Positions 5,335-29,268 of a stretch of DNA of 64,000 nucleotides are shown one piece after another. The notes beneath the pieces are model-generated. The model had not been told where the DNA came from and did not search any database. It saw only the letters and a list, made by a program, of their open reading frames with translations. Made by a program: the position numbers and the translations under genes. Numbering within the stretch: position 1 is the stretch's first letter; each line of letters begins with the position of its first letter. Source of the stretch: Achatina immaculata. Taxonomy: Eukaryota; Mollusca; Gastropoda; Stylommatophora; Achatinidae. The DNA is taken from positions 45,099,433 through 45,163,432 of the forward strand of contig CM019693.1 of assembly GCA_009760885.1 (NCBI GenBank), written 5' to 3'.

Positions 5335-5761
5335 TTATTTTATATGCAAATTCAACAAGCACCAAACCACCAAGGGCGGGTCCAACCGAGCCAGGTCATT
5401 TTTTGTTTTTGTTTTTTTTGTTTTGTGCCAGTTTTTTTTCCAGACAAAAACTTTCAAATAAACAATAACGAAGCATGTACATGTGACGTGAGTTGAGGAT
5501 GATTGCCCGTGGAATGAAATAATGAGATGGTGGGCTTTACAAACCATGAGGTGATAGCATGGAGTATGATAACGCGAATACTTTGTACATAAAACGTTAC
5601 AACAAAGGTGTATAGTAATAGTATAGCCACACACATACACACACACACACTTCCTCTCACCTACTATCAGGGCCCTTTCTCCCTCTCTCTCACTCTCTTC
5701 GTTAACTTTCTCTCTAGTGATGGACAGTGCTTGTATTCGGCTAAAGCCTTCTCTTTCACTC
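5335..5761 (-). other. Older 3' UTR of the array family
   Basis: Homologous to the 3' UTR of copies 2-5 but with scattered substitutions (ACCATGAGGTGATAG versus ACCGTGAGGTGACAG, GCGAATAC versus GCGAATGC) and a longer CA tract. It therefore predates the amplification and represents an earlier insertion at this spot. Confidence 0.8.
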
Positions 5762-5982
5762 ACGGCCGAGAGTTGCCACTCCATTGAGCCCCAGACCCAC
5801 AGGTCCAGCCAGAATGCTATGCATGAATGCATATGACACACGTGAGGCATTCTGCCCACTGACTGTGCATACCAGAGTCCCTGGGAGTTCTTCTTGGCCA
5901 CCCTCCATATCCGTCTCCGGGTTGTAGAAGAAGGTTGGAGTATCCATAACAGAAAGAAAAAAAAAAAAAAAAAAAAAAAAAA
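5762..5982 (-). pseudogene. ORF1 5' fragment inserted in the copy 1 3' region
   Basis: The ATG at 5947 and 62 codons of ORF1 match the intact copies, including the MDTPTFF start. The piece ends at ACGG (5762-5765), shared by the ORF1 and 3' UTR sequences at the breakpoint. Upstream on the minus strand is a T-run (A-run 5957-5982 on the plus strand) fused to the ORF2 stop codon region. Translation would run out of ORF1 into 3' UTR sequence. Confidence 0.85.
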
Positions 5983-5985
5983 CCA

Positions 5986-8900
5986 CTAGAAACTGGTTGA
6001 AAGCTGTAACAATTTTTGTTTGAAAATGTACAGGAGAAGTTCTTTTGTAAAAATTCTATTTTCAAATGTGGCCCTATTCCTACATGACCAAACAACATAC
6101 CTAAACTCAGCAAGGAGGATGATACACTGCGTATGGCTGTTTGTTTCTGTTCGAGGAATGGTGTTTAACATTATTGCTCTGTATATGTCTACTTTCTCTG
6201 TTGTTCTTGTTGCTATCTCCTGAGTCAAAAATTCTAAGGCTAAAGAAACGGTTCTGCACTGAAAGAAAATGTGTTCTTCCGTTTCTTGTGTGTTCAGTCT
6301 ACATAGTTTACATCTGATCAGTCTGTGGAATCTGTGGGCGATCCCTTGTGTGGTCGGTGTCATGTTGAACAATAGTCTGTATGTTATCTCTCGTGCACTT
6401 GGCGTGATTCCTTTCTTGTGTAGGTTTTGAAATGATTGTGTGTAGTCGGTGATGAAGTATTTGTATCCTCTCTTTATTCTGCACTGTAATGGAGGCTCCT
6501 GTTTCCTGACCAGATGTTTGTATATGCATGATGTTTTCATGCGTATTAAACGTTCATTCCCAGTTACACTTTGTATGCATTGTCTGTAGAAGAGCGGTAT
6601 AGTGCCAAAGTGATGGGGGTGTATATTGTTTAATTTACACAGTTTAAGAAGCCTCAGCCCAACGTAGTAGTGGGCTAGAGTATGTTTGTGTGGCTGTTGG
6701 ATGATTTGTCCTATATATTTGATCCTGAGTGCCTGGATCTTTGTTGCTATGTCTTGTAGGGAGATGCCCCCTCTATTTTTGTCTTGCATCAAGGTTTTCT
6801 GTTGGATGCTGCGTACTGTGCGTCGGAAAATAAAGTCTCTAATCATTGAATTTATTTCCTTAAGTGACTGTTTAGGCAGGGGGAATATGTTTGCGGTATA
6901 TATAAGCTGTGGTATGATGCAAGTGTTGACTGCGACACTTCTGCCGAATATGGTGGTGGTTCTGTATTTGTAAATTTCCAGTCTGTTTTTAATTTTTTCA
7001 ATTATATTTCGCCATCTTGCTTTGATGTTATTTGAAGGCGTAGCTGTAAATAATATTCCGTATATTTTAATGTTGTTGACTTGTATTAATGTGAAAGGGA
7101 AGTCTGTTTTGTTGGTCCATTTACCTAAACCCATTATATGTGATTTTTGAATGTTTATTTTAGCCCCGCTGCCCTGTCCGAACTCTGCAAATATGTCTAG
7201 AATAAACCTGATAGAGGATATATTGGAGGGAAAGAAGATTGTGTCGTCAGCATAGGCCAACGACTTCCTCTCTCCCATTCCAGGAATAAAGATTCCTTTG
7301 ACTATTGTCTCTTGCCTGATTCTCTCCAGGAGTGGCTCTAGAGTTAACACATACAACAGGGGTGAGAGTGGGCAGCCCTGACGTACAGATCTGGTTAACC
7401 GTATTGGTTCACTGAGGGTATGGTTTATTAAAAGTCTGCTTTCTGGTTTGTTGTATAGAATTTGTATCCAGTCTCTGATGTAGTTCCCAAGATTACATTT
7501 GGACAAGGTTTTCTGGAGGAAAGAATGGGAAACTCTATCGAAAGCCTTCTCCTGGTCCAGCGATAAGATTGCTGACTGGCTATTCTTATCGTGAGAGTAT
7601 TGGATAACATCTCTTAGGAAATGTAGATGCGTATTTATGTTTCTGTCGGTGACACTGCATTGCTGGTCCTCATGTATAAGTGTGTGCATGACGGGTTTGA
7701 GTTTCATAGTTAGGGACTTTGCTAGAATTTTGTAGTCTACGTTGAGTAACGAGATAGGTCTGTAATTTTTAACTTGAGTTGTGTCTGCGTTGCTTTTCTT
7801 AATGAGTGTTATGTATGACTGATTGAGACTGTTGGGTAATTCTTTTCTGTCGAAGGCTTCAATAAACACCTTGTGTAGGACAGGTCCTAAAATGTGGAAG
7901 AATTTCTGATAAAACTCGGCAGTGAGGCCATCCGGTCCTGGAGATTTGTTCTTTTGGAATGTGTCAAGCGCATTTTGTAGGTTTCCTAGCGTGAGTGGGA
8001 TGTCTAATGTTTGTTTGTCTTCTTCAGAAATCTGTTTGGCGTAGTTCAAGAATTTGTTTTGTATGTCTTCTGATTGACCTTTGTCCTCAGAGTATAAATG
8101 TATATAAAAATCTTGAAAGGTTTGGCTTATTCCGGTAGTGCCTGTCTGTTCCTGTCCATTTATGTCTATTATTTTGCGTATTTGCCTGCTTCTTTGCACA
8201 TTTTGTTCTGTACCTAGATATTTTTTACTTGGTATTTCTTGTACGGCAGAGGCAAGTTTTGTTCTGATGAAAGCACCCTGGTAACTGTGTTGATGGTATT
8301 TTTCTACTTCTTCCTCTAGCGCATGTATGTGAGGACTATTGGGATCTACCTGCTTGGTTAGTTTAATAGCATTTTCCAACATTTGTTGTTGCTGTCGTCT
8401 GTATCTGTGTATTTTTGTCGCCAAGACCTGTGTTCTCTCTCTGATAGTGTTCTTTAATACATCCCAGTATTCTATGAGGTTGGATTCAGGTAAGTCTTGA
8501 GTGTACGCGTGTAATAGTTCCGTTATGTTATCTACATAATCTCCATTATCCAGCAAACTGTTATTAAACTTCCAGTGTGGGGAGCGTTTGTTTTTGAGTT
8601 GTGCCAAGGTTGCGTTTAATGTGACCATGACCGCTTTATGATCTGTGTAATTTAAGGTTGTGTCTATGTGTTTGATGTCATTTATTAGAAGACCTTCTGG
8701 GACATATATTCTGTCTATTCGGGCTGATCGTCCCATGTTTATGTTAATTGTGTCAGTGTGTGTAGTTTCCTTACCATGTGGGTTCACCTTTCTGTATGTG
8801 TCTACGAGCCCGTGTTCGTCTATGATGTTGTGTAGTATGTCTATTTGTTCGAGTTCACGGCGTACGTTAATTGTTCCTCTCGACAGATCAAGATCGTGCA

Positions 8901-27343: not shown

Positions 27344-27456
27344 TTTTTTTTTTTTTTTTTTTTTTTTTTTTTTTTTTTTTTTTTTTTTTTTTTTTTTTTT
27401 TTTTTTTTTTTTTTTTTTTTTTTTTTTTTTTTTTTTTTTTTTTTTTTTTTTTTTTT
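27344..27456. repeat. Expanded internal poly(A) tract in the copy 5 3' UTR (113 bp)
   Basis: An uninterrupted run of 113 Ts on the plus strand (As on the element strand). In copies 2-4 the same place holds several shorter runs broken by G, A and C. It lies inside the 3' UTR, upstream of the terminal poly(A). Slippage or assembly error could account for the exact length. Confidence 0.85.
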
Positions 27457-27819
27457 GCTTTTTTTTTCCAAATCTTTCCAAAAAAAAACAAACTTTCAAA
27501 TAAACAATAACGAAGCATGTACATGTGACGTGAGTTGAGGATGATTGCCCGTGGAATGAAATAATGAGATGGTGGGCTTTACAAACCGTGAGGTGACAGC
27601 ATGGAGTATGATAACGCGAATGCTTTGTACATAAAACGTTACAACAAAGGTGTATAGTAATAGTATAACCACAGACACACATCCTCTCACCTACTATCAG
27701 GACCCTTTCTCACTCTCTCTCACTCTCTTCGTTAACTTTCTCTCTAGTGATGGACAGTGCTTGTATTCGGCTAAAGCCTTCTCTTTCACCCACGGGGTGT
27801 ACACAGAAATAAATATGCA

Positions 27820-29268
27820 CTAGAAACTGGTTGAAAGCTGTAACAATTTTTGTTTGAAAATGTACAGGAGAAGTTCTTTTGTAAAAATTCTATTTTCAAA
27901 TGTGGCCCTATTCCTACATGACCAAACAACATACCTAAACTCAGCAAGGAGGATGATACACTGCGTATGGCTGTTTGTTTCTGTTCGAGGAATGGTGTTT
28001 AACATTATTGCTCTGTATATGTCTACTTTCTCTGTTGTTCTTGTTGCTATCTCCTGAGTCAAAAATTCTAAGGCTAAAGAAACGGTTCTGCACTGAAAGA
28101 AAATGTGTTCTTCCGTTTCTTGTGTGTTCAGTCTACATAGTTTACATCTGATCAGTCTGTGGAATCTGTGGGCGATCCCTTGTGTGGTCGGTGTCATGTT
28201 GAACAATAGTCTGTATGTTATCTCTCGTGCACTTGGCGTGATTCCTTTCTTGTGTAGGTTTTGAAATGATTGTGTGTAGTCGGTGATGAAGTATTTGTAT
28301 CCTCTCTTTATTCTGCACTGTAATGGAGGCTCCTGTTTCCTGACCAGATGTTTGTATATGCATGATGTTTTCATGCGTATTAAACGTTCATTCCCAGTTA
28401 CACTTTGTATGCATTGTCTGTAGAAGAGCGGTATAGTGCCAAAGTGATGGGGGTGTATATTGTTTAATTTACACAGTTTAAGAAGCCTCAGCCCAACGTA
28501 GTAGTGGGCTAGAGTATGTTTGTGTGGCTGTTGGATGATTTGTCCTATATATTTGATCCTGAGTGCCTGGATCTTTGTTGCTATGTCTTGTAGGGAGATG
28601 CCCCCTCTATTTTTGTCTTGCATCAAGGTTTTCTGTTGGATGCTGCGTACTGTGCGTCGGAAAATAAAGTCTCTAATCATTGAATTTATTTCCTTAAGTG
28701 ACTGTTTAGGCAGGGGGAATATGTTTGCGGTATATATAAGCTGTGGTATGATGCAAGTGTTGACTGCGACACTTCTGCCGAATATGGTGGTGGTTCTGTA
28801 TTTGTAAATTTCCAGTCTGTTTTTAATTTTTTCAATTATATTTCGCCATCTTGCTTTGATGTTATTTGAAGGCGTAGCTGTAAATAATATTCCGTATATT
28901 TTAATGTTGTTGACTTGTATTAATGTGAAAGGGAAGTCTGTTTTGTTGGTCCATTTACCTAAACCCATTATATGTGATTTTTGAATGTTTATTTTAGCCC
29001 CGCTGCCCTGTCCGAACTCTGCAAATATGTCTAGAATAAACCTGATAGAGGATATATTGGAGGGAAAGAAGATTGTGTCGTCAGCATAGGCCAACGACTT
29101 CCTCTCTCCCATTCCAGGAATAAAGATTCCTTTGACTATTGTCTCTTGCCTGATTCTCTCCAGGAGTGGCTCTAGAGTTAACACATACAACAGGGGTGAG
29201 AGTGGGCAGCCCTGACGTACAGATCTGGTTAACCGTATTGGTTCACTGAGGGTATGGTTTATTAAAAG
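27820..29268 (-). pseudogene. ORF2 C-terminal part (copy 5)
   Basis: Matches intact ORF2 from about residue 647 to the stop. It keeps the RT RQGCPLS and AYADD boxes and the CCHC motif but lacks the endonuclease and the N-terminal RT. The frame is open throughout, so truncation is recent. Confidence 0.92.

Follow-up and report, generated by a model that had tools for sequence, protein, structure and literature searches.

We analysed a window of 64,000 nt from the genome of the snail Achatina immaculata (C11:45099433-45163432 of a 1.65 Gb genome; here and below, L numbers denote loci and C numbers contigs), which carries on its minus strand a head-to-tail stack of copies of one long interspersed nuclear element (LINE) with two open reading frames, ORF1 and ORF2. 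An earlier note on this DNA had described four units with identical ORF2 proteins and intact ORF1s, followed by a truncated fifth in the same orientation. This was confirmed, as the ORF2 DNA of the four units showed 0 differences over 3387 nt and their ORF1 proteins were identical. The units measured 5460, 5442, 5469 and 5463 bp from ORF2 stop to ORF2 stop, and the term satellite-like that had been applied to the array describes this spacing (5442-5469 bp) only. Differences between the units were found in an A-rich tract of the 3' untranslated region (3'UTR), in the lengths of the A run and the T run, and at three single bases outside the tract, one of which adjoins the T run. The description of the array thus stands with two amendments: perfect identity is not special to it (see below), and copy 1 has an odd 3' end, in which an ORF1 piece of about 200 nt is fused to a 3'UTR that is more diverged than the body of the copy.

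ORF2 has a length of 1121 aa when counted from the ATG (1128 aa as listed from a TTG) and matched the Pfam domains PF03372 (residues 15-245), PF00078 (524-754) and PF13966 (976-1041; 27.8 bits at a cut-off of 27.5), while ORF1 gave no Pfam match. An APE endonuclease, RVT_1 and a C-terminal zf-RVT in ORF2, a separate ORF1 with a CCHC motif, and A tails are together the features of the L1 group. The nearest solved structure to ORF2 was human LINE-1 ORF2p (8uw3, E 9.4e-88), and the closest named protein relative among the matches listed came from the land snail Bradybaena similaris (49%). No labelled Tx1 reference was present among the 120 protein matches listed. Comparison of the window with the 20 best-scoring copies outside it placed the element ends at 5' TGATCCGCC... 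and 3' ...TTGCATATAAAATA plus an A tail. Judged by its sequence, the element appears to be a young, target-specific retrotransposon without long terminal repeats (non-LTR), with an APE endonuclease and an L1-like ORF2, and it is probably still active.

Histone H4 sequence at joints, 5' ends and insertion sites

At each of the four joints in the window a poly(A) tail is followed by 16 nt of histone H4 coding sequence, GGGCGGGAAGGGACTC, and then by the 5' end of the next unit. These 16 bases, together with two A that the tail also supplies, are host H4 codons (ATGTCAGGACGAGGTAAGGGCGGGAAGGGACTCGGAAAG... in the native gene L030), so that the match to native H4 extends over 16-18 nt in all four cases. 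The 16-mer was not found elsewhere in the window, whichever strand was searched. The tails at the four joints are of unequal length, and a single one contains a T (AAAT). As for other kinds of target, no transfer RNA (tRNA), ribosomal RNA (rRNA) or small nuclear RNA (snRNA) target was detected in the window at the Rfam gathering score or by ARAGORN, and five flank loci gave no Rfam match at the gathering score.

A genome search for further copies and a reading of flanks, as the earlier note had proposed, yielded both dispersed copies and further stacks. Joints with the bare target came to 12 at seven places, namely four in the window and eight at six other places (L011, one; L019, two; L020/L025, one; L023/L024, two; L103, one; L106, one). 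The stacks lie at C11:45.1, C18:18.0, C18:20.9, C9:47.8, C16:27.3, C16:11.4 and C19:41.8 Mb. All 12 joints have the R1-like form of tandem copies with exactly one target duplication between them, L024 being the exception among the neighbouring copies. The H4 target was present in four versions among the joints outside the window. None of the 12 contained the whole H4 leader; so far as the A run allows one to judge, their start coincides with the target cut. L019 holds, in order, a non-histone flank, an H4 leader, a 5'-truncated copy, its tail, the repeated target (a duplication of about 11 nt within the carried H4 leader) and a full copy, and it appears to catch the stacking step at a non-histone site. 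A further array was noted at C16:11400441-11424104, where five ORF1 copies stand on one strand with a spacing of 5.6-5.8 kb, L103 having a joint with the H4 target and L104 a full leader.

Every readable 5'-complete end (45 of 45) abutted H4 codons, 33 of them with an H4 leader and 12 as tandem joints; the remaining ORF2 copies and most of the 114 ORF1 matches listed genome-wide lie outside this count. Among those ORF1 rows, the 5' ends of 20 were read and all 20 abutted H4 codons (18 leaders, 2 joints). Unreadable or 5'-incomplete were the own 5' end of L011, L013, L015, L027, L028, L080, the truncated copies in L019 and L024, and copy 5 of the window. The 33 copies carry the H4 leader and the first 11-12 codons, and then the element's own TGA. 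Of their leaders 19 are of one H4 type and 14 of others, the latter including L095, L099 and L107 with a longer variant, and the leaders derive from at least two H4 genes.

In the four copies that lie within H4 genes the upstream H4 match continues through the promoter, with a TATA box 91 nt before the ATG in one leader type and 42 nt before it in the other. The other 29 leader copies (16 of the first type, 13 of the second) were not seen behind an H4 promoter. Their match ends 52-73 nt before the ATG in the first type (16 copies, four of them matched to the fetch limit of 61 nt) and 9-14 nt before it in 12 of the 13 copies of the second, that is, 18-39 nt below the TATA box, with L079 apart. 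As RNA polymerase II would be expected to start near the points at which the dispersed leaders end, the element is probably driven by H4 promoters. Some of the 29, for example L093 in the C29 histone cluster, may lie in H4 genes after all, as only 120 bases were fetched.

Insertions inside histone genes point in the same way to the target. In L014, L017, L018 and L021 a TATA promoter, the H4 5'UTR and the first H4 codons are followed by the element, and the remainder of H4 stands behind the tail in L014, L017 and L021 (the 3' side of L018 consists of N); the native, empty H4 gene L030 was used as comparison for these filled genes. The insertion sites lie between AA and GGGCGGGAAGGGACTC at the K5 codon and between AA and GGGGGGAGC at K12, and in L017 a 16-nt target-site duplication at K5 places GGGCGGGAAGGGACTC on both sides of the element. 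Histone H2A, whose SGRGKGGK start is shared with H4, stands behind the tail in L013. Independent copies were hence found at the same site of a host repeat, which is the mark of target specificity, in four H4 genes and one H2A gene, and the target would lie in the opening codons of histone genes, chiefly of H4 and once of H2A.

A genome search with the H4 protein gave 49 matches from 57 candidates. More than half of them (28 of 49) were at least 90% identical and started only at residue 4-13, and when the upstream sequence of all 28 was read, 17 had a LINE tail at the cut, three from this family and 14 from related types. Of the related tails 12 belong to one subfamily on C16 and C47 and one each lies on C9 and C10; they are 85-90% alike over 98-189 nt of 3'UTR (ten aligned, the other four by eye). 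Full-length H4 genes free of stops numbered seven, four on C29 and three on C18 that miss three residues, and one further match, at 88%, spans residues 1-96. The cut H4 genes on C16 may in many cases go back to a small number of events, and intact H4 genes may be hidden in gaps of the assembly; the clusters, which include N, are situated close to the ends of contigs C29 and C11. The H2A search returned 24 rows, of which eight were full length at 98-100% without stops, one more had a stop, two stood at 92-95%, and one was cut at residue 4, beside L013; H2A thus appears to be struck less often than H4 by this LINE family.

Several other arrangements of H4 and LINE sequence were observed. Twelve H4 remnants (L037-L041, L044, L045, L055 and L057-L060; C16:44.8-45.3 Mb and C47) are headed by tails of a second LINE subfamily, which meet the gene at the K8 codon or adjacent to it. 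L034, L035 and L036 (C18:18.00-18.03 Mb) are three copies of an open frame of 263 aa with a translated H4-type leader, an ORF1-like CCHC fragment (35-37% identity) and an in-frame H4 minus GGK, and may represent an ORF1-H4 fusion or a decayed rearrangement. In L050 and L062-L065 (C18:26.97-26.99 Mb) five H4 pieces covering residues 13-103, with one stop each, follow immediately on ORF1-like sequence, with a spacing that is mostly near 5.5 kb.

The genome holds at least 41 ORF2 copies (41 of 92,910 first-look candidates scored). Of the 24 copies compared, 14 had identical ORF2 DNA over 3387 nt, that is, the four window units and ten of 20 others (on C11, C18, C24 and C29), the 20 being the best-scoring matches beyond the window and not a random sample. 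An incomplete fifteenth copy, L028, showed 0 differences over 3364 nt, and the remaining nine had 2-20 differing sites. Because identical ORF2 copies also occur at unlinked sites on other chromosomes, the identity within the array reflects the youth of the family and not local correction, and a local origin of the perfect identity was rejected.

Away from H4, target duplications of 15 nt (L026), 9 nt (L022) and 17 nt (L078/L086, by eye) were found, which supports target-primed insertion. Off-target copies L012, L022, L027, L085 and L098 lie in or beside one repeat (CCATATCGTGTTAAGACTCACCTGAGTCAAGG), which is perhaps a second preferred target. In a relaxed Rfam search of 301 bases of L025, the 5' end of the element at L025:8207-8286 was found fused to a U2 snRNA-like 5' piece (RF00004, 41.5 bits, E 3.1e-7, below the gathering score of 46), a fusion that looks like a sign of template switching.

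Next to the stack, the cut end of copy 5 meets a second LINE, which lies on the plus strand (window 29271-32600, with RVT_1 at 31689-32600), and no match to the remainder of copy 5 beyond it was detected anywhere in the window. Dense short tandem repeats with units of 4, 14, 16, 22 and 24 bp were noted at window 33302-34864 and 61859-62772.

Positions of the array and its parts in the window
Feature	Position	Strand	Remarks
Head-to-tail stack	5336..29269	-	Four complete LINE units and one 5'-truncated copy
Decayed relative	2879..4938	-	ORF1-like and ORF2-like pieces, 68-70% DNA identity where matched; directly downstream of array
Copy 1, 3' end	5336..5985	-	T run, ORF1 piece of about 200 nt, more diverged 3'UTR ending TTGCATATAAAATA
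Copy 1, 5' end (TGATCC...) to ORF2 stop	5986..10836	-	
ORF2 of copy 1	5986..9351	-	APE-type endonuclease, reverse transcriptase with YADD, zf-RVT
ORF1 of copy 1	9679..10776	-	365 aa, CCHC zinc knuckle CPICSSDAHRANQC
H4 target, copy 2 tail / copy 1 joint	10837..10852	-	GGGCGGGAAGGGACTC; matches native H4 gene L030
Copy 2 with A tail	10853..16289	-	
H4 target, copy 3 / copy 2 joint	16290..16305	-	
Copy 3 with A tail	16306..21735	-	
H4 target, copy 4 / copy 3 joint	21736..21751	-	
Copy 4 with A tail	21752..27206	-	
H4 target, copy 5 / copy 4 joint	27207..27222	-	
Copy 5	27223..29269	-	Ends within ORF2 at 29269, where opposite-strand LINE starts
ORF2 of other units	11446-14811, 16888-20253, 22357-25722	-	Start moved to equivalent ATG
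ORF1 of other units	15132-16229, 20578-21675, 26049-27146	-	Start moved to equivalent ATG

Origin of the stack

Based on these observations we consider it very probable that the element is a young LINE that targets histone H4, is copied from the H4 promoter, carries its target along and stacks on itself. According to this model, target-primed reverse transcription into an H4 gene would be followed by transcription from the H4 promoter, giving an RNA with the H4 leader, a frame of 11-12 codons (MSGRGKGGKG...) with its stop, ORF1 and ORF2. A copy that lands elsewhere would take the H4 leader along and so bring a complete target to the new site, and because the leader carries that target, each dispersed copy could be a landing site for later ones. 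The next copy would nick the carried target and prime on it, and its H4 leader would anneal to the identical leader already in place; annealing is suggested because the joints hold one target and no second leader. The outcome would be one leader at the front and one copy of the target between units, and repeated rounds would have built the stack in the window, with the most upstream copy as the newest.

The earlier note had offered three origins for the array, without having seen the histone target, and its account is partly supported. Site-specific stacking, the first of them, is supported by the order of poly(A), H4 target and 5' end at all 12 bare-target joints in the seven places. We consider it unlikely that, once a single stacked insertion was in place, the array grew from one unit by unequal crossing-over or by amplification as circular DNA. 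Such growth would account for the identical ORF2 of the four window units, for L009 and L010, which have their flanks on either side in common and resemble a segmental tandem duplication, and for the mismatched 3' end of copy 1 as a sign of recombination, and LINE circles are known as products of Zorro3 (PMC3510499). Yet the same ORF2 sequence is present at unlinked sites on other chromosomes, so that identity speaks only for youth. The A-rich tracts also differ among the units, as do the tail lengths with the single AAAT, and comparable joints, in which the H4 target takes four versions, were found at six further places. A first joint cannot arise by exchange, which also explains the differing tails poorly but may have added units.

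End-to-end template jumping, in which several RNAs are joined within one reverse transcription event, had also been proposed, and the joints argue strongly against it. Jumping predicts the whole H4 leader at the joints, because dispersed copies appear to begin at the H4 transcription start and their RNAs would carry a leader of up to about 60 nt; all 12 joints begin at the target cut instead, and jumping was rejected for them for lack of the leader. The sub-threshold U2 snRNA-like fusion at the 5' end of L025 hints that jumps may occur in the family, and another may be preserved as the ORF1 piece at the 3' end of copy 1, but as an origin of the array we regard jumping as extremely improbable. 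We give equally little weight to the idea that the H4 sequence is a captured 5'UTR common to all copies, with no target preference. H4 sequence on every 5'-complete copy read, many of them outside histone genes, would fit such a capture; however, capture at the 5' end cannot put host gene sequence behind the tail, where the remainder of H4 or H2A stands in L013, L014, L017 and L021. In addition, cut H4 genes on C16 and C47 stand behind tails of the second subfamily, whose 3'UTR is 85-90% alike over part of its length, and at least two clearly different H4 leaders are in use. That the array is an assembly artefact is very unlikely, since the units have individual tails and tracts and equivalent joints are found at seven places, although runs of N do occur in some loci (L018, L028, L029).

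A number of observations weigh against self-stacking on a carried H4 target, or limit it. The diverged 3' end of copy 1 suggests that recombination or template switching also acted. The upstream end of the array was lost together with its leader, as copy 5 stops at 29269, and the first landing of the stack cannot be shown; it is not visible because that end is lost and the downstream end is unusual and lies beside a decayed relative. The genome searches with H4 and H2A gave no match near the stack, which as far as these show lies outside a histone cluster. Within H4 genes, no duplication accompanies the insertions L014 and L021, behind which H4 continues from the K12 codon. Of the 28 truncated H4 genes, 11 show no LINE tail at their cut end; five of these are joined to ORF1-like sequence, two, on C13, have LINE sequence in the vicinity, and the others lie one each on C16, C19, C31 and C2. 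Among the copies in tandem, the 5'-truncated neighbour in L024 lacks the H4 target, the row at C16:11.4 Mb includes one unit, L104, whose leader is complete, and L009/L010 with their shared flanks resemble a plain segmental duplication. L009, L010, L012, L016 and L081/L084 are without a clear target duplication, and the match of L079 to the reference leader reaches no further than 2 nt before the ATG.

Beyond the stacking itself, we tentatively propose a wider picture, which may well prove wrong, of a LINE lineage settled in replication-dependent histone genes. Here the H4 promoter would tie expression and reverse transcription to S phase, the lineage would export its target and build arrays, most H4 copies would have been knocked out, and related subfamilies and ORF1-H4 fusions would record a long contest with the host.

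Comparison with known target-specific LINEs

Target-specific LINEs, stacking at a target and the use of a host promoter are each already known separately. LINE targets on record are rRNA, tRNA, snRNA and spliced-leader genes, microsatellites, telomere repeats and transposons, as far as two papers on such elements list them (PMC4640811, PMC3706591). Among the papers listed by searches of the open-licence literature, which included one on His4r in Drosophila and one on repeats in a fish, no title or displayed abstract described a LINE aimed at histone genes, and the word histone is absent from the main texts of PMC4640811, PMC3706591 and PMC13188248. Within these bounds we found no published LINE that is directed at histone coding sequence or that transports a protein-coding target to other sites. 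If a LINE disrupts an essential family of protein-coding genes, and does so at the most conserved codons, one may ask how the host survives and whether the LINE has a part in shaping histone supply, copy number and S-phase timing. The element would offer a natural nuclease and reverse transcriptase for a fixed, conserved coding site, and a simple rule for full-length LINE arrays away from the home target, in which each copy brings its own landing site.

Human LINE-1 is the closest relative with a solved structure (ORF2p 8uw3); it has a loose preference for T/A-rich targets and its own promoter. Keno, Mutsu and Dewa are members of the Tx1 clade. Tx1-clade LINEs resemble the snail element in bearing an APE endonuclease and in including target-specific families (PMC4640811), with U2 snRNA as the target of Keno, 5S rRNA of Mutsu and a tRNA-Leu spacer of Dewa, none of these given targets being a histone gene (PMC3706591). 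Utopia and Keno, which insert into U2 snRNA genes, likewise use a low-copy host gene, and in the Phytophthora and Nasonia species tabulated disrupted U2 genes outnumber intact ones; occasional tandem insertions are described for one Utopia family (PMC4640811). They differ in that the target is U2 snRNA and that Utopia has a restriction-like endonuclease (PMC4640811).

R1, in the 28S rRNA genes of Drosophila, is like the snail element an APE-type, target-specific LINE (PMC4640811). R2, also in 28S rRNA genes, has a restriction-like endonuclease and a single ORF, and its target is transcribed by RNA polymerase I. R2 lacks a promoter of its own and relies in at least some species on that of the host gene (PMC13188248), a feature that the snail element may share. 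In tandem arrays of R1 a 14-bp target duplication lies between copies, an arrangement ascribed to new insertions into the duplication that flanks an earlier copy on its 5' side. Some R1 RNAs were inferred to contain upstream 28S sequence, and annealing of such sequence was proposed for some R1 and R2 insertions (PMC2718515). The target of R1 is 28S ribosomal DNA, a gene for a non-coding RNA, whereas the snail element would be aimed at a protein-coding histone gene with a TATA promoter.

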